Shown: positions 25,108 to 33,019 of the stretch, in pieces
Layout: every line of letters begins with the position of its first letter
Position numbering within the stretch: the first letter of the stretch is position 1
Source of the DNA: an uncultured Clostridia bacterium
GTDB lineage: Bacteria > Bacillota > Clostridia > Monoglobales > Monoglobaceae
Direction of reading: 5' to 3'
NCBI GenBank assembly: GCA_947631965.1
Contig: CANRNL010000005.1
Coordinates: forward strand, 1 to 64,000
Length of the DNA stretch: 64,000 nt
The notes under the pieces: model-generated
The model's input: only the letters and a program-made list of their open reading frames with translations
The model's database searches: none
Told to the model about the DNA's origin: nothing
Program-made: the position numbers and the translations under genes

Positions 25108-25171
25108 GACACGAAACGTGCTGAATTTGACACGAAATGTTGTTTAAATTTGCCAAAACATATGATATAAT
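25105..25171 (+). promoter_or_regulatory. Promoter region of the 25215 gene with a 15-bp direct repeat
   Basis: TATAAT lies at 25166-25171, 43 bp before the start codon. No good -35 box is at the normal distance. Upstream are two copies of TTTGACACGAAAYGT (25105-25119 and 25126-25140), 21 bp apart, or two DNA turns, on the same helix face. This is the layout expected for an activator site standing in for a weak -35. Confidence 0.5.
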
Positions 25172-25214: not shown

Positions 25215-28200
25215 ATGACATCTGTGACGAAAATAAAATTAAAAAGACTGCTGAGCGTAATACTTGTTCTTGCGCTCGTTGCCACCTTGGTGCAGGTACC
25301 GGTTTTTGCCGAAGGCGAGCCGATTTATCTGCCCGAGGCGGATTTGAGCGAGGAAGTGCTAAACAGCGGTACGTTCAATTTGTCCGCTTCGGGAGCGGAA
25401 ATTGAAGAAAATGCGGGAGCGCCGTATATCTTCAAGGTCAAAAGAGGAGGAGAATATTTGCCCGAAGCTACGCTTCGCCTTGATATGATTGATATTACGG
25501 CGAAATACGGCGACGATTATACCGTAAGGCTGTATAACGGCGACGGTGAGGGCGTCCAAAACTCCGGCAGCAAGTCGATTATTGAGGAAATAATCGACAA
25601 TGCCGACGAAATTGAAGAAATCAACGACAGCGACTACATTGTCTCGGGTGAGCTGGTTGATACCGAGGAGGAAATGGAAGCCTTTCGCGAGGACGCAAGC
25701 ATCGGTGCGGAGTATGTCGCTGCTATGTTCGGCATAGGAGAAGGCGAAGCGTCCGCGGATGACGCGGCAGTACCCGAAGCTACCGATACTGCTGAGCCCG
25801 AAGTTACCGATGAGGTAGAACCTGAGGTTACGGACGCGGCGGAGCCCGAAGTGACTGACGCGGCGGAGCCTGAAATAACTGACGAAGTCGAACCCGAAGT
25901 AACTGACGAAGCAGAGCCCGAAGTTACCGACGAGGCGGAGGTTGAAGCGTTTGACGACGAGACTGTTCAGGAGGCTGACACGTCCACCCTGCGCGGGATA
26001 AAGGCTCTCGCCACGGGTATGGAGAACGATATAGCTCCCATGGACGGCGGAAGCGCAGGCGCGGCAAGCACGGAGCGTATGCTTACCGACGAAATGCTAA
26101 ACGGTCTTTCGACTTCGCTCGGAAGCGCGTACCTTACGCTTAATTTTGCCGAGGGCGAAACCGAAAAATACATAGCCCTTACGCCGAAAAATAATTTAAG
26201 AGGCGACGGCGACAAAATGTTTACGATAAACCTCGTAGCCGAGTCATCCTATGCGGTCGTGGGCTTGTCGGGTATGAGCGTCTCGATTATTGACGACGAG
26301 GTTCAGGAGGAAGCGGCGGTTGAATTTTCGGACGCGGAGTATCATCCCTCCGACGGTTACATAAAGGTTAAGGTAGTGCGTGACGGCGCTTTAAATCAGG
26401 TGGTATCGGTAATGCTCTCCACCGAGGACGAAACGGCACTCAAAAACCGCGATTATTCTCAGGTGGACACAACTCTCGTCTTTCCGTACGGTATCAGCGA
26501 GAGAACCATAAACATTCCGATAAGAAGCGATTACGCGGAGGGAAACGCGTCGTTTAAGCTGAAACTGCACGAGGCGACTAACTGCGTTGTGGGCGAGCTT
26601 GGAGCCGCGCACGGCGTTATTGACGCGCACAGCGAGAGCTTTGACTTTAAAGGAACCGACTACGAAACCGGCGACAGCGGCAGTGCCGACAATGCGGACA
26701 ATAGAGTAGAGATTGCGGCGGACGCTTCCGCGTCGGATATTATTCTCGGCGACAAAGTGGATTTGAAGACGTTTTTCAACAGTTACCTGTCTCGTAACGA
26801 CGGCGGCGGTGAGTCGCATATGGATGGAGAGGAATATGTGCTTACCTTGCCGGCTCTGTACTGGTTTAACGCCAACGAGGACGCGTCTGTGGAATTAGTC
26901 GGCACATCGGAAAAGCATTACGATTACAGCGGCTATCAAGTCGAATGGACAAAGGAATCAAATGACGGCAATTATTCGCACACCACGTTAGAAGCCGGCG
27001 CCAACGATGTTAACAGTAGTGAGGAACGATGGAACAACCGCAAGGATAATGTTTTCGGCGACATAGATATGGATTCATTTTCAATCCGGCTGTACCATGA
27101 TTTTGCCTTCATAACCACGGCGACAAAGCTCACCATTCATTCGATAACTCCTATTTTAAGACCGTTCGAGGTGTCTCTCGCCCCGTCCGATCCGCTTAAG
27201 TTTTTAAACGAAAACGGAGAGTATGTGGACAATACGAATATAGCGCGCCTGAAAAATGCGAACGACACCGTTTTGCAAAACGCAAGCACCAACGGCAAGG
27301 GAACGGCGGTAAAATTCAGCGGCGACTATATTACGGTGACGACAAGCAGCCCATATGCTTATATTTCAGGGCTGAATATTATCAATCCCTCGAATGGATG
27401 GACAAAACCCATTCTCAGTAACCTCAAGCCCGGAACCACGTCCGCGTCGGTACAGCTTACGAACGATTTTATAGCGGACAACCTTTATTATGTCGATTTT
27501 GCGAATAACGGCAAAAACGGAAGTAAAGGGCAGTTCCAAGTTCAGGCGGTGCTGGATTATTATGATGTGAAAGTCAATATTCACGAGGACCCCAATGCGT
27601 CGGTTACCATGACCCATATAAATGACCCCACAGAAAAGGACGATTCTCATATTATAAGAGGGGAATATTACATTAAAAGCGCGTCAAACGGCAAATACAT
27701 ATATATGGTTCCCGACCCGGACTTTGTATATCCCAAGGATGTCACTTTGCAAAACGGTTGGGGAACAAAGTTTACCATTGTTCCTGCGTTTATGTATGCC
27801 CAAGGTCAAAATCGTGAGGATTGGGCTGTTATAAAAGCGTCGGATTGGCCGAATAACGCCCTGACCCGCCGCACTCGTTATTTAGAAAATGATCATTCTC
27901 CGTCAAGATGGCATCAGCGGGATGTCGGAGAGAACCCGAGTATGGACGAGATGTTTTCCATTGTCAAACACGAGGACGGTACTTGCACGGCAGTCGCCTG
28001 TATGTACTACTCGCTCAAGGAATGTGGAGATTATGTAGGGTATGATTTTACGCTCAAACCCGAGACGCTGAGTACCTCCTCACGATGGATATTTGAGCCT
28101 GCGAGCGAGCCGGAGACGGAAAAAGAATGGACGCTGCACCGCGGCGATACGGTCACGTTTACTCAGGAAATAAACAACGCGATGTACAAAGGCTCGCGTA

Positions 28201-31200
28201 TAAGATTTGTTACAAGAGATACCTCAAGCGCCGAGGAGGTTGACGTTAAGAGAAAGTACGACAAGGATAATTCATGCACGTTATTCTGCAATTATTCAAG
28301 TCTTGACGTCTACCCGAGCTATGAAAACAGTATGCAGGTAATAGTCAGGGTAAAGAAAAGCGACCTTTATATGTTCCAAACCGACAAGGGTATATTCACC
28401 TGCCCGAGCGTTGATAACGGCGATTATAACGATTATATCGTAACAAACGAAAACGACTTTGCGGAATCGGTATATTATGAATATTCCGCATACCCGAGGA
28501 GCGACACTCTGGTCCCGATATGGAACAGCTTATATTCGCAGAGTACCCTTTATTTTGAGTCGTCAAACGTTCCGGAGAAGAATGTCATCACGCTGACCTG
28601 TAAGCCGGCGAGCAAGCAAAAGTACGTTCTGACCGGAACCGCGCGTTACTCCGACACATCCATAAACGGAACTACCGAGGGAAGTGCCTGGATGCCGGCA
28701 AAGGGCGCGTATGTGCTTATGGGAAGCTCGGTTTACGGAATATCCGACGACGACGGAAATCTTACAACCATCGGTGCGCCCGGTCTTCCCTGTTATCGCT
28801 TTATTTATAAGGTCGTCGCATCCGGCACGACTCGATACGCGACCGTGCGTCTTAGAGATGACAATACCGTGGAATACAGCGAGAACACATATGACCCCGT
28901 TACGGGAGATGTGACAGGCACAGTCACGCAGACGGCGTATGGTATGAATATAGGAACGATAATCGTGTCGCCGACTGACAGAACCGCCCCGTACCCCGAG
29001 GCGTTCGTGTCTACAATGTCGAGCGGAGTTCAGACCGAAACCGTGCAGATAAACGACGACATTACGAGTTTCACCATCACAGTCAACAACAACCACTCAA
29101 AATACACCGACACCGACGGAGTTGAGCGTGAGGAAAAGGTTATCGGCGTTGACGTTTTAATTTACGACGGACAGACCAATCAAGAGAAAACCGTGCTAAG
29201 CGGAGCAAAGCAGGTATCGGATGAAAACGGTATGAGCGTATGGACTCTCTCTAAGAGCTTTGAGCGAGGAAAGACCGAGGAGTACAAGGCAAGCGACAAG
29301 GTCTACGTCAGATTAACCACCGACAGAGTTATAGGAAACGGAAAGAGCGTCAGTGCCGACGGAACCGAAACGAGCGCCGAGGCGCTTTTGCAGACGGTTT
29401 ACGCTCCGGTTTACACGGGCTATACCCTCGCACAAAGCAACGTGCAGCAGCCCGTAACGCAGGAGTTCGACCCGAGGGAGAATATTTGCCCCGTAAATCT
29501 TCCGTTTTTGGGAGCGATGAACTCAACTTTTAATGTTGCGTCCATTTCGCTGTCAATATCTGAACTCCCCAACGGAGGTCAGCGACTGTCGTTCGGAGTT
29601 TCGCCCCAAAGCATCAGCGCGGGCAACGAAATTAAAAATGTGGAGACCGGAGTGGACTACGGTCTTAGCGACATAAAGCAGGCTTTCAGCGAAACCAAGG
29701 AATTCGGAGAAGCGATAAACATTTTCGGAAAGCCGTTCGGCGGCAGTCATTATGCGGGTATGAAGGCGTTTGCAATTAAGCCGATTTTTGGAATATACCT
29801 TGATTTCGGTGTTAAATCCATAAATCTGCAAGGCAGCACAAAGACGGCGTTTTCGTTTATGGGCGGCGGACTTTATCTCGGCGGTATGGGACATATCCGC
29901 GGAACAATATACTTCACGATAGGATGGCTTCCGATTTACTTCGGCTTTGACGGAGAACTGACGATATATACCCAGGTAGGTGTGCAAACAATAGACAAAT
30001 CCATTGATGTCACACCGAGTATGATAAACAGCGAGTCTAACTCGTTTGACAGGTACCTGGAGCCGTCGTGGTGCTTACAGGCAAACGTAATTGTCGCGAT
30101 ATATGCGGGCGTGGGACTTTGCGGCACTCTGGGCGTGCGAGGCGGAGTTCAGCTTGATATGAACGGTATATACAACCACACGATACAACTGCTGTATCCA
30201 AGTATCCGCAAGACGGGAGCATATTTAAATCTCAGCGTAAGAATATGGGTGGACGCGCTCCTGTTCTCAATCCCCATTCCGGTGGCAAATCTCGTTGAGA
30301 AGAGATACGGATACTACGAGGATATAGCAAACTCCGACATCATCGGAGGTTCAAAGACTTCGTCGTCCGAAGCGCAAACTCAGACATCAGCGGTAGACGA
30401 GGATACGGGAGTTGTTATGCGCCCGAGAAGCGCAAATCAGTCGGCGTGGCTGCCTAACGGAAGCGTAGACGTTGCAAGTACGTTTGAAGAGGCTTCTTCA
30501 ACGGTGCTTTTGGAGAACGGATACGACAGAGCAGACCCGCAGCTTATGGATTTGGGCGGCGGCAGAATACTCCTCGTGTTTATCGCGGACGACCCAAGCC
30601 GAAGCGACAGCGACAGGACCGCGCTTATGTACAGCATATACGAAAACGGAACGTGGTCAAATCCCGCTAAAATTCAGGACGACGGAACAGCCGATTTCGA
30701 GCCGGATTTGTGCGACGCGGGCGATAAGGTACTCATCTCGTGGACTTCGAGGTCCGAAGGCGTTTCCCCCGAAAACGAGCTTGATTACATAAAGAGTATG
30801 GACGTTTACGCGGTAACTCTCGATAAGGCGACGCTTGAACTCGGCACAACGGAACAGCTCACGAATGATACCGACAAGGGAATGTATGACAGCGCACCCG
30901 TCGGACTTTATGACGAAACATCGGGCGATATGATGGTTTACTATCTCAAGTCCGAGGTAAAAGGCACCGACTTTGAAAAGTCTGTAATGCCGACGACGAA
31001 CGAAAGCGTAATCGTTTATATGCTCTACGACGCTTCAATGGGTAAGTGGTTAAGGGATTACTATTACCCGAACGAAGTCGCAAGCGATGAGGCGAAGCAG
31101 GAGCTTATCGAAAACTGGGGCGCTCAGAGGTTCCTCGCGTCTCCGATAAAGGACTTCTCCAAAAATTCGCCTGTAATCATAGACTTTGACGCGATAAGCT

Positions 31201-32603
31201 ATAACGGCATAGGTCTGTATACCTTCACCGTAGATCAGGACAATAATATGGATACCGACTTTGACAGAGAGCTGTTTGTTCAGGCGTATGACTTTGATAC
31301 GCATACGACATATGTGCCTGTGAGAATAACAAACGACAATTTCGCGGACGCACGTCCTCAGCTTGTCAGAAACGGCGAATATACATACCTGTTCTGGTTT
31401 GAAAACAACAAGGATATACGATACATAAATGTTACCGATTTAATCAAATACGGCGTTAACGCTGACGGAACTATCAAAGAGGACTACGACTTCAACATTA
31501 ACGTGGTATTCTTTATGGACAGCAGCGACAGCACCAGTATTGTAAATCCGTCCTTTGACAGCTACAACGCGTTTGTGGATAAGGACAACAATTTGTTTGT
31601 AACGTGGCTCCAGCCCGTTAAAGAGGAGGACGGCTCAAGCTGTCAGGAAATCTACGCGTCGGCGTTTATACGCGACGCGGAAGGCTCGTGCTGGTCTGAC
31701 GGCGTAAGGCTCACTCACAGCGGAGTGCAAAACGACGAGGTCGCGTTCCTTACAGACGCAAGCGGAAATCTGCTCACCGTAAGCAACCAATATAAAGTGG
31801 ATTTCGTGGATGAAAATCTGGGAGCGAAGGACATAAAGCTCGTCGCGACGAATTATAAGACCGTTGGCTCTATCGATGTTACCGATGTTCAGCTTGCCGA
31901 CGCGTCTCCGACGGCGGGCAGCGAGAACAATGTGACAATAACCGTTAAAAACACCGGACTTAAAAACGCTAAGGGCTACACGATGGACGTTTACGAAAAG
32001 GTAAACGGTGAGGTCGGCAAAAAGCTTACGACCATTACTTCGGACGAAATACTTACGCCTTCGTCAAGCGACACGGCGGAGCTTATATGGACAATGCCCG
32101 AAAGCTATGAGGGCGTTAACGATCTGTCGCTTTATATCACGGTTAACGAGAACGAAACGAGCGAGATAAGCAAGTTCACGAGCGACAGTATAGACATAAG
32201 AGCGGAGTACGAAATTGTAAGCTATGACATTTCCGAGAATTCCGACGGTTTTTACATCACATATACTGTTAAAAACGGAATTGTTCTCGGCTACGAGGAT
32301 GGTAAGTTCGGTCCCGACGATTTGATAACGCGTGAACAGGCGGCGGCTATGATGTGGCGCTATGCACAGTATACCGGCGAGGATGTATCCGTGGGCGAAA
32401 ATACCAATATACTGAGCTATACCGACGCGCCGCAGATAAGCGAATACGCGACTCCCGCGCTTCAGTGGGCTTGCGGAGCGGGCGTTATCAACGGATATAC
32501 CGACAACACGTTACTGCCGCAGAATAATGCGACGCGCGCGGAAGCGGCGGCAATGATAGAAAGAATTGACAAAATGTTAAATAACGATAACGATATACAG
32601 TAA
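25215..32603 (+). CDS. Giant Calx-beta/CARDB surface protein with SLH anchor (paralogue 2)
   Basis: 2462 aa, RBS AAAGGAG ahead. Signal peptide 1-32 (VPVFA then EG). The N-terminal Calx-beta half ends at GDDYTV (~100). A long acidic insert with eight-residue EPEVTD-type repeats follows, and the domain resumes at ~300 (AYLTLNFAEGETEKY), with a second Calx-beta near 370-475. The middle carries beta-sandwich regions and a carboxypeptidase-regulatory-like domain near 1135-1215. The glycine-rich core has GVGLCGTLGVRGG near 1634. The propeller-like part starts with ADPQLMDLGGGRILLVFIA near 1775, and a CARDB-like domain is near 2225-2330. A second CARDB-like domain stops after YTVKN (~2354) and runs straight into the back half of an SLH domain (GYEDGKFGPDDLITREQ), followed by one full SLH. 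Anchoring to the wall is likely; function unknown. Confidence 0.87.
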   Translation: MTSVTKIKLKRLLSVILVLALVATLVQVPVFAEGEPIYLPEADLSEEVLNSGTFNLSASGAEIEENAGAPYIFKVKRGGEYLPEATLRLDMIDITAKYGDDYTVRLYNGDGEGVQNSGSKSIIEEIIDNADEIEEINDSDYIVSGELVDTEEEMEAFREDASIGAEYVAAMFGIGEGEASADDAAVPEATDTAEPEVTDEVEPEVTDAAEPEVTDAAEPEITDEVEPEVTDEAEPEVTDEAEVEAFDDETVQEADTSTLRGIKALATGMENDIAPMDGGSAGAASTERMLTDEMLNGLSTSLGSAYLTLNFAEGETEKYIALTPKNNLRGDGDKMFTINLVAESSYAVVGLSGMSVSIIDDEVQEEAAVEFSDAEYHPSDGYIKVKVVRDGALNQVVSVMLSTEDETALKNRDYSQVDTTLVFPYGISERTINIPIRSDYAEGNASFKLKLHEATNCVVGELGAAHGVIDAHSESFDFKGTDYETGDSGSADNADNRVEIAADASASDIILGDKVDLKTFFNSYLSRNDGGGESHMDGEEYVLTLPALYWFNANEDASVELVGTSEKHYDYSGYQVEWTKESNDGNYSHTTLEAGANDVNSSEERWNNRKDNVFGDIDMDSFSIRLYHDFAFITTATKLTIHSITPILRPFEVSLAPSDPLKFLNENGEYVDNTNIARLKNANDTVLQNASTNGKGTAVKFSGDYITVTTSSPYAYISGLNIINPSNGWTKPILSNLKPGTTSASVQLTNDFIADNLYYVDFANNGKNGSKGQFQVQAVLDYYDVKVNIHEDPNASVTMTHINDPTEKDDSHIIRGEYYIKSASNGKYIYMVPDPDFVYPKDVTLQNGWGTKFTIVPAFMYAQGQNREDWAVIKASDWPNNALTRRTRYLENDHSPSRWHQRDVGENPSMDEMFSIVKHEDGTCTAVACMYYSLKECGDYVGYDFTLKPETLSTSSRWIFEPASEPETEKEWTLHRGDTVTFTQEINNAMYKGSRIRFVTRDTSSAEEVDVKRKYDKDNSCTLFCNYSSLDVYPSYENSMQVIVRVKKSDLYMFQTDKGIFTCPSVDNGDYNDYIVTNENDFAESVYYEYSAYPRSDTLVPIWNSLYSQSTLYFESSNVPEKNVITLTCKPASKQKYVLTGTARYSDTSINGTTEGSAWMPAKGAYVLMGSSVYGISDDDGNLTTIGAPGLPCYRFIYKVVASGTTRYATVRLRDDNTVEYSENTYDPVTGDVTGTVTQTAYGMNIGTIIVSPTDRTAPYPEAFVSTMSSGVQTETVQINDDITSFTITVNNNHSKYTDTDGVEREEKVIGVDVLIYDGQTNQEKTVLSGAKQVSDENGMSVWTLSKSFERGKTEEYKASDKVYVRLTTDRVIGNGKSVSADGTETSAEALLQTVYAPVYTGYTLAQSNVQQPVTQEFDPRENICPVNLPFLGAMNSTFNVASISLSISELPNGGQRLSFGVSPQSISAGNEIKNVETGVDYGLSDIKQAFSETKEFGEAINIFGKPFGGSHYAGMKAFAIKPIFGIYLDFGVKSINLQGSTKTAFSFMGGGLYLGGMGHIRGTIYFTIGWLPIYFGFDGELTIYTQVGVQTIDKSIDVTPSMINSESNSFDRYLEPSWCLQANVIVAIYAGVGLCGTLGVRGGVQLDMNGIYNHTIQLLYPSIRKTGAYLNLSVRIWVDALLFSIPIPVANLVEKRYGYYEDIANSDIIGGSKTSSSEAQTQTSAVDEDTGVVMRPRSANQSAWLPNGSVDVASTFEEASSTVLLENGYDRADPQLMDLGGGRILLVFIADDPSRSDSDRTALMYSIYENGTWSNPAKIQDDGTADFEPDLCDAGDKVLISWTSRSEGVSPENELDYIKSMDVYAVTLDKATLELGTTEQLTNDTDKGMYDSAPVGLYDETSGDMMVYYLKSEVKGTDFEKSVMPTTNESVIVYMLYDASMGKWLRDYYYPNEVASDEAKQELIENWGAQRFLASPIKDFSKNSPVIIDFDAISYNGIGLYTFTVDQDNNMDTDFDRELFVQAYDFDTHTTYVPVRITNDNFADARPQLVRNGEYTYLFWFENNKDIRYINVTDLIKYGVNADGTIKEDYDFNINVVFFMDSSDSTSIVNPSFDSYNAFVDKDNNLFVTWLQPVKEEDGSSCQEIYASAFIRDAEGSCWSDGVRLTHSGVQNDEVAFLTDASGNLLTVSNQYKVDFVDENLGAKDIKLVATNYKTVGSIDVTDVQLADASPTAGSENNVTITVKNTGLKNAKGYTMDVYEKVNGEVGKKLTTITSDEILTPSSSDTAELIWTMPESYEGVNDLSLYITVNENETSEISKFTSDSIDIRAEYEIVSYDISENSDGFYITYTVKNGIVLGYEDGKFGPDDLITREQAAAMMWRYAQYTGEDVSVGENTNILSYTDAPQISEYATPALQWACGAGVINGYTDNTLLPQNNATRAEAAAMIERIDKMLNNDNDIQ
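25774..25947 (+). repeat. 24-bp coding repeat (EPEVTD-type) in the 25215 gene
   Basis: Seven eight-residue steps of the form PEVTDEAE / PEVTDAAE make a strongly acidic tract. It sits inside the insert that splits the first Calx-beta domain. Confidence 0.8.
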
Positions 32604-32616
32604 AGGAGGTATAAGA

Positions 32617-32763
32617 ATGAACAATAACAAAAAAGATGATAATAAAAGTAATCCCAAAGAGATTAATTTAGAGACTTTGAAGCAGGTTACGGGCGGCTCA
32701 CTCGAAAACGTGCCCCGCGTACCCGAAAAACCGATAGACGACCCGTTGAAATCCAAAATTTAA
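32617..32763 (+). CDS. 48-aa peptide with double-glycine leader (bacteriocin/ComC type)
   Basis: ATG at 32617 with a strong RBS, AAAGGAGGT (32602-32610), which overlaps the stop codon of the 25215 gene; the gap is 13 bp. The peptide has a hydrophilic N-terminus (Asn/Lys/Asp-rich), then INLETLKQVTGGS. This matches the double-glycine leader pattern L-x-x-L-x-x-V-x-G-G of class II bacteriocin and ComC-like peptides, which are cut after GG by C39-peptidase ABC exporters. The remaining 21 residues begin SLENVPRVPEKP and end DPLKSKI, with no Cys and four Pro. No exporter, modification enzyme or immunity gene is in the window. A strong hairpin follows. The leader match is seen; export as a signal or bacteriocin is inference. 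It could instead be a small regulator that resembles the pattern by chance. Confidence 0.62.
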   Translation: MNNNKKDDNKSNPKEINLETLKQVTGGSLENVPRVPEKPIDDPLKSKI

Positions 32764-32774
32764 TTGCGGACGCA

Positions 32775-32815
32775 TACAATGAGCGGGACGGATATTATCC
32801 GTCCCGCTTATTGTA
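32775..32815 (+). terminator. Terminator-like hairpin after the double-glycine peptide gene
   Basis: Nineteen-base arms with one G-U pair (TACAATGAGCGGGACGGAT and partner) and a 3-base loop. It lacks a clear T run, so ending may be partial or factor-assisted. Confidence 0.6.
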
Positions 32816-32891
32816 TAGAGTTCCCGAAAAGCGACTTGCGACGGTGTAGGGGCGAACCGTGTTCGCCCGCAATGATTGCACTCCGTGCGGG

Positions 32892-32918
32892 CGGGACGTC
32901 GAGGGCACCGTCCCGTAC
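32892..32918 (-). repeat. Dispersed GC-rich repeat, copy 2 (inverted)
   Basis: Exact reverse complement of 3971-3997. It lies in a GC-rich patch (about 32820-32985) that shares a second short match with copy 1 (AAAAGCGACTTGCG) and has several inverted motifs. The patch fills the gap between the peptide gene and the end of the ClC gene. Confidence 0.65.
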
Positions 32919-33019
32919 AACTGAATGGGCGTGCTTTACCTGTTGTAGGGTGCGGCGCCCTCGACGCACCGTATATAAAAAATAACCGACAAACAATGGC
33001 AGAAAGTCTAAACCGTATA

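Follow-up and report, generated by a model that had tools for sequence, protein, structure and literature searches.

NHLM/NHLP export systems are found near peptides with Gly-Gly (GG) leaders and combine an HlyD-like protein (TIGR03794), a C39 ABC protein (TIGR03796) and a second ABC protein (TIGR03797) (Haft et al., 2010, PMC2887384). A related case is Synechococcus elongatus, where efficient secretion of the small GG-motif proteins EbfG1-4 needs the C39-type peptidase transporter PteB. The EbfG proteins have roles in the formation of biofilms, both at the cell surface and within the matrix (PMC4997328, PMC9981879).

Here we analyze a 64,000-nucleotide stretch of contig CANRNL010000005.1 from an uncultured Clostridia bacterium (the window). 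Its genome, G000, is represented by an assembly that is 81% complete (GCA_947631965.1). A first-pass annotation had drawn attention to a 48-aa frame at 32617-32763. Judged by sequence, this frame is a conserved gene and not a chance frame, because its leader motif is unique in the window, homologues with the GG site lie behind giant surface protein genes in other genomes, and its substitutions follow a coding pattern.

Peptide gene and leader

The frame lies on the + strand, begins with an ATG at 32617 and encodes MNNNKKDDNKSNPKEINLETLKQVTGG followed by SLENVPRVPEKPIDDPLKSKI; its stop codon ends at 32763. The stop codon of the giant SLH gene ends at 32603, leaving a gap of 13 bp, and the ribosome-binding site AAGGAGG (32603..32609, + strand) sits 7 nt ahead of the ATG. 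RBS-like sequences likewise precede the homologous peptide genes. Downstream, an inverted repeat at 32774..32816 (+ strand; 21-nt arms, 95% complementary, 1-nt spacer) forms a stem-loop that is a probable terminator with a weak T-run at the end of the transcription unit. For the 100 nt that follow its final sense codon, the folding energy is -46 kcal/mol. A simple scan for terminators detected none with a T-run behind the gene. Stem-loops follow the peptide stop in homologous loci too (weakest at the second G223 locus, G223b), which makes the peptide the probable final cistron. Coordinates and sequence agree with the initial description of a 48-aa frame that has a strong RBS, starts 13 bp past an SLH gene and is followed by a hairpin.

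A separate inverted repeat at 32892-32971 contains GTAGGGTGCGGCG. This motif occurs three times in the window (32892-32971, 11430 and 4029), once with a mismatch, which exceeds chance expectation.

The predicted leader spans 27 codons (32617..32697, + strand) and ends in ...INLETLKQVTGG. Among the 302 ATG-started window frames of 25-90 aa, the peptide is the sole carrier of L..[LVIM]..[VIL].GG, for which shuffled sequences give an expectation of 0.175. Residues L21, V24, G26 and G27 are invariant across 11 of 11 homologous peptides. The bacteriocin-leader model TIGR01847 matches residues 14-27 weakly (13.2 bits, cut-off 15.7), and the ComC model (PF03047) scores 10.7 bits against a cut-off of 20.4. 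Pfam and NCBIfam gave no other match to the window peptide, including to their models of nitrile-hydratase- or Nif11-related leaders. The remainder after GG, SLENVPRVPEKPIDDPLKSKI (32698..32760, + strand), is the predicted mature peptide: 21 aa with four Pro, no Cys and net charge 0, identified by its conserved core and coding substitution pattern. The sequence thus bears out the GG leader INLETLKQVTGGS and the 21-residue, Cys-free, Pro-containing remainder that had been claimed.

Homologues of the peptide

Scanning genomes brought up two orthologues, L006 (G060) and L007 (G025, a Monoglobus MAG); a giant SLH gene immediately precedes each of them. All three peptides, that of the window included, have the same TGG and PRVPEKPIDD. 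Codons of the window gene and L007 differ 15, 6 and 28 times at positions 1, 2 and 3, a coding pattern with mostly third-position changes. Searching 391 genomes of the class with a profile gave seven clear matches (E <= 2.1e-6): one each in G000, G025 and G162 and two each in G378 and G223. Each of the seven immediately follows a giant homologue, as does the G060 orthologue. A reverse search with the conserved region of the giant yielded two further pairs, in G058 and G404. One marginal profile match, L063 in G071, has an E-value similar to those of PurM-like rejects and was accepted solely for its position behind a giant. These weaker relatives (G071, G058 and G404) also lie directly behind giants, but they were accepted or found through that position. 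Small frames after giant genes in related genomes, where the first-pass annotation had suggested looking, conserve both the frame and the GG position. Together with the gene order, this conservation supports its reading of the frame as a probable secreted peptide with a double-glycine leader.

Weak profile matches in G304, G356, G175 and G302 were rejected as PurM-like (HITGGGFYENIPR), identified by eye. Phylum-level matches in G687 and G465 were rejected as other GG peptides of a different family, and the viral contigs searched gave no match. At the G687 locus (L140 8870-10129), GG peptides carrying NNSGAQQNTQNG-like repeats form an array beside a C39-like ABC exporter. Behind the peptide gene of G071 (L075 8487-9675) lie genes resembling, by eye, those of an encapsulated ferritin and an encapsulin shell.

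Among the peptides nearest to that of the window, the core pattern [VI]PRVPE..IDD.L..KI shows strong conservation. Of the 11 cores, 9 have [KN]I at their end; those of the outlying members G071, G404, G162 and G058 diverge much, yet all have this ending.

These cores bear on whether the product is an unmodified class II-like bacteriocin, exported by a C39 transporter and merely sharing a transcription unit with the giant gene. A GG leader with a C39 exporter is typical of class II bacteriocins, and the weak TIGR01847 match points the same way. However, the homologous cores are 21-25 aa long, Cys-free and of net charge -5 to +3, and they stay conserved across genera and families instead of diversifying. 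The pairing with a giant surface gene recurs, and no small immunity gene was noticed in the clusters with a linked exporter. We consider a bacteriocin quite improbable.

Giant surface protein partner

The upstream gene (25215..32603, + strand) encodes a giant surface protein of 2462 aa with a signal peptide (by eye) and, by Pfam, SLH (2.2e-21), Calx-beta (6.7e-16) and a weak CARDB match (8.6e-4, below the CARDB cut-off); homologues occur in the linked loci. By consensus, a promoter-like site precedes it at 25143..25171 (+ strand; TTTAAA-17-TATAAT, 10/12, with TG before the -10). The recurring gene order in relatives favors the pairing of peptide and surface gene that the first-pass annotation had pointed out.

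SLH is also present in some relatives of the giant; by Pfam, the giants of G058, G404 and G071 have Calx-beta but no SLH, so the pairing is independent of SLH anchoring. Some giants lack the peptide, namely one Monoglobus clade (G006, G013, G029 and G025:C10) and G152:C97, so for these, at least, the peptide is dispensable. The host genomes of this clade lack C39, G025 excepted. On the giant tree, two to three changes of peptide label are needed.

G378 carries two giant-peptide pairs. Their SLH end and peptide form an 886-bp block of 97.4% identity (L067 12303-13188, and L068) that ends 6 nt past the peptide stop, and the remainder of the two giants is almost without DNA similarity. The two peptide cores differ at three residues. 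Such a block between otherwise dissimilar giants suggests that SLH end and peptide can travel together.

Ahead of its SLH end (~32258-32276), the window giant is about 1 kb shorter than the G025 and G378 copies, with the reading frame kept. The junction reads ...YTVKNGIVLGY... and reflects either a real deletion or an assembly error. Four giants, of which two are partial, were searched for peptide-like motifs (PRVP, VPEKP, KPIDD and [VI]P.VP), and none was found. An AlphaFold model of the giant's conserved 814-aa region, built from three sequences, was too poor (mean pLDDT 45) and was discarded.

C39 exporter

In five genomes (G025, G060, G378, G058 and G404), NHLM-type ABC1(C39)-ABC2 genes lie directly upstream of the giant, giving the order exporter-giant-peptide. 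In G025 and G060, the giant is preceded by genes for four proteins: a Peripla_BP_6 lipoprotein (by Pfam), an HlyD-like adaptor, a C39 ABC protein and a second ABC protein. Exporter gene order is the same in G378:C21 and G058, and G378 and G058 have genes similar to the lipoprotein. The exporter genes of G025 and G060 have their best matches in TIGR03794, TIGR03796 and TIGR03797, all below the equivalog cut-offs, and the G058 ABC subunits also score below them. ABC1 and ABC2 of G404 score above the curated cut-offs; on that contig no gene for HlyD was seen. All five linked exporters have the catalytic Cys, His and Asp motifs of C39. By these sequence matches, the exporter of the linked loci is probably of the NHLM type (PMC2887384).

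The linked operons also bear on whether the peptide is a secreted pheromone that is sensed by kin and controls the surface operon. Its size and leader resemble ComC/Blp-type pheromones, and the Peripla_BP_6 lipoprotein could bind a small ligand. Against this, the ComC score falls well short of its cut-off, and no histidine kinase or peptide-binding regulator was noticed in the linked clusters, where the family scan covered a minority of genes. Pheromone cores usually diversify between strains, and here the core is retained across genera. We regard a pheromone as unlikely.

C39 occurs in 6 of 8 sampled pair-bearing genomes and in 46 of the other 383 (Fisher p 1e-4, ignoring phylogeny, for few and partly related genomes). 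The two pair-bearing genomes without C39 are 81% and 84% complete. G060, which lies beyond the eight, also carries a C39 exporter. In G071 and G223 the exporter is unlinked to the pair, on different contigs and megabases apart, respectively.

In the window, the pair sits inside the contig with no exporter adjoining it, and no cluster of HlyD, C39 ABC1 and ABC2 genes lies beside the peptide gene. The first-pass annotation's description of a peptide without a local exporter holds for G000, but not for the family, given the five linked loci. The same annotation would have taken a genome without a C39 peptidase as evidence against its reading. In the G000 assembly (81% complete) no C39 exporter turned up, the only C39 match being a sub-cut-off one in a C39_2-like protein; formally this counts against the reading, and relatives do carry the exporter unlinked.

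An orphan peptide would account for this absence: in G000 the peptide would no longer be exported and would be the remnant of a transferred giant-peptide cassette after exporter loss. The same-genus genome G001 (93% complete) has no match for the peptide, the giant (E <= 1e-40) or a C39 exporter, and the window giant's in-frame gap of ~1 kb before the SLH end points the same way. On the other side, the frame, RBS and core are intact with a coding substitution pattern, the assembly is incomplete, and unlinked exporters exist in G071 and G223. We give the orphan reading a small but appreciable chance.

Related arrangements were seen elsewhere. In G223 (L129 2171-5012), a different SLH protein (884 aa) is followed by a GG peptide ending in LKPRPPKPSPDMKFE, with a C39 exporter and second ABC gene further on; this variant suggests a broader principle. 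A PPKP peptide similar to it lies behind a TPR-like protein in G465 (L141 12101-12220). In G012 (L116), an NHLM-type exporter, a Cys-containing GG peptide and a giant gene are clustered, with the giant gene cut off by the contig end. Close to giant or NHLM-type loci of G174, G031 and G404 (L118, L127 and L138), there are look-alikes, by eye, of an anti-sigma kinase, an anti-anti-sigma (STAS) protein or a PP2C phosphatase.

Proposed mechanism

The sequences themselves show the gene with its conserved GG leader and core, a recurring order of genes, a stem-loop closing the unit and, in relatives, a linked exporter with C39 motifs. The reading we favor, and hold to be reasonably probable, is a C39-cleaved, exported and probably unmodified 21-residue peptide that acts at the wall with the co-transcribed giant as ligand or assembly partner. 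The ABC exporter would be of the NHLM type; its C39 peptidase would recognise the 27-residue leader and cut it off, with release of the core SLENVPRVPEKPIDDPLKSKI outside the cell. Export is strongly indicated. Cleavage after GG, lack of modification (no modifying enzymes were noticed in the linked clusters) and co-transcription with the upstream Calx-beta/SLH gene are inferred. The giant would be exported separately by Sec, given its signal peptide. For G000, the exporter would be either in the missing part of the assembly or absent.

Outside the cell, the peptide may bind the giant's conserved part; gene order is the basis for this partnership, and the shared operon with an exporter in several relatives suggests that the two work together there. 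Of the three roles first put forward, ligand (or assembly partner) fits best. A bacteriocin or a signal fits less well, because the core is near-neutral, Cys-free and conserved and no kinase or modifying enzyme was noticed in the clusters. More tentatively, exporter, giant Calx-beta protein and 21-residue peptide might form one functional unit in Clostridia, with the separately exported peptide dedicated to the giant as its ligand or assembly cofactor outside the cell; we think this possible, at somewhat less than even chances.

Annotation assigns NHLM-type C39 exporters to bacteriocin systems. If the proposal is correct, they would have a surface-building or surface-tuning role, and a partner would be indicated for uncharacterised giant surface proteins of Clostridia. 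The peptide is short and open to direct synthesis and testing.

Comparison with known systems

In the part of the literature covered, we found no description of an exporter-giant-peptide operon and no paper linking double-glycine, S-layer homology and C39, or Monoglobus and S-layer homology. Like NHLM/NHLP systems, the relatives' loci usually have a three-part exporter near a GG-leader peptide, and the G404 ABC1 and ABC2 proteins exceed the cut-offs. The loci differ in their short classic leader, which is not nitrile-hydratase- or Nif11-like, in a short Cys-free core without noticed modifying enzymes, in the giant surface gene as recurring partner, and in the sub-cut-off ABC subunits of G025, G060 and G058. 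PCAT GG peptides (class II bacteriocins, ComC/BlpC; PMC7018657, PMC7595303) share the leader pattern and the logic of C39 cleavage. Here, in contrast, the core is neutral, conserved and Pro-containing, the partner is a giant wall protein, and no kinase or immunity gene was noticed. For EbfG/PteB, the available portions of the reports describe no giant surface partner gene, and they describe amyloid formation by EbfG1-3. By mode of action, as likened from description rather than sequence, EbfG/PteB would be the nearest published case.
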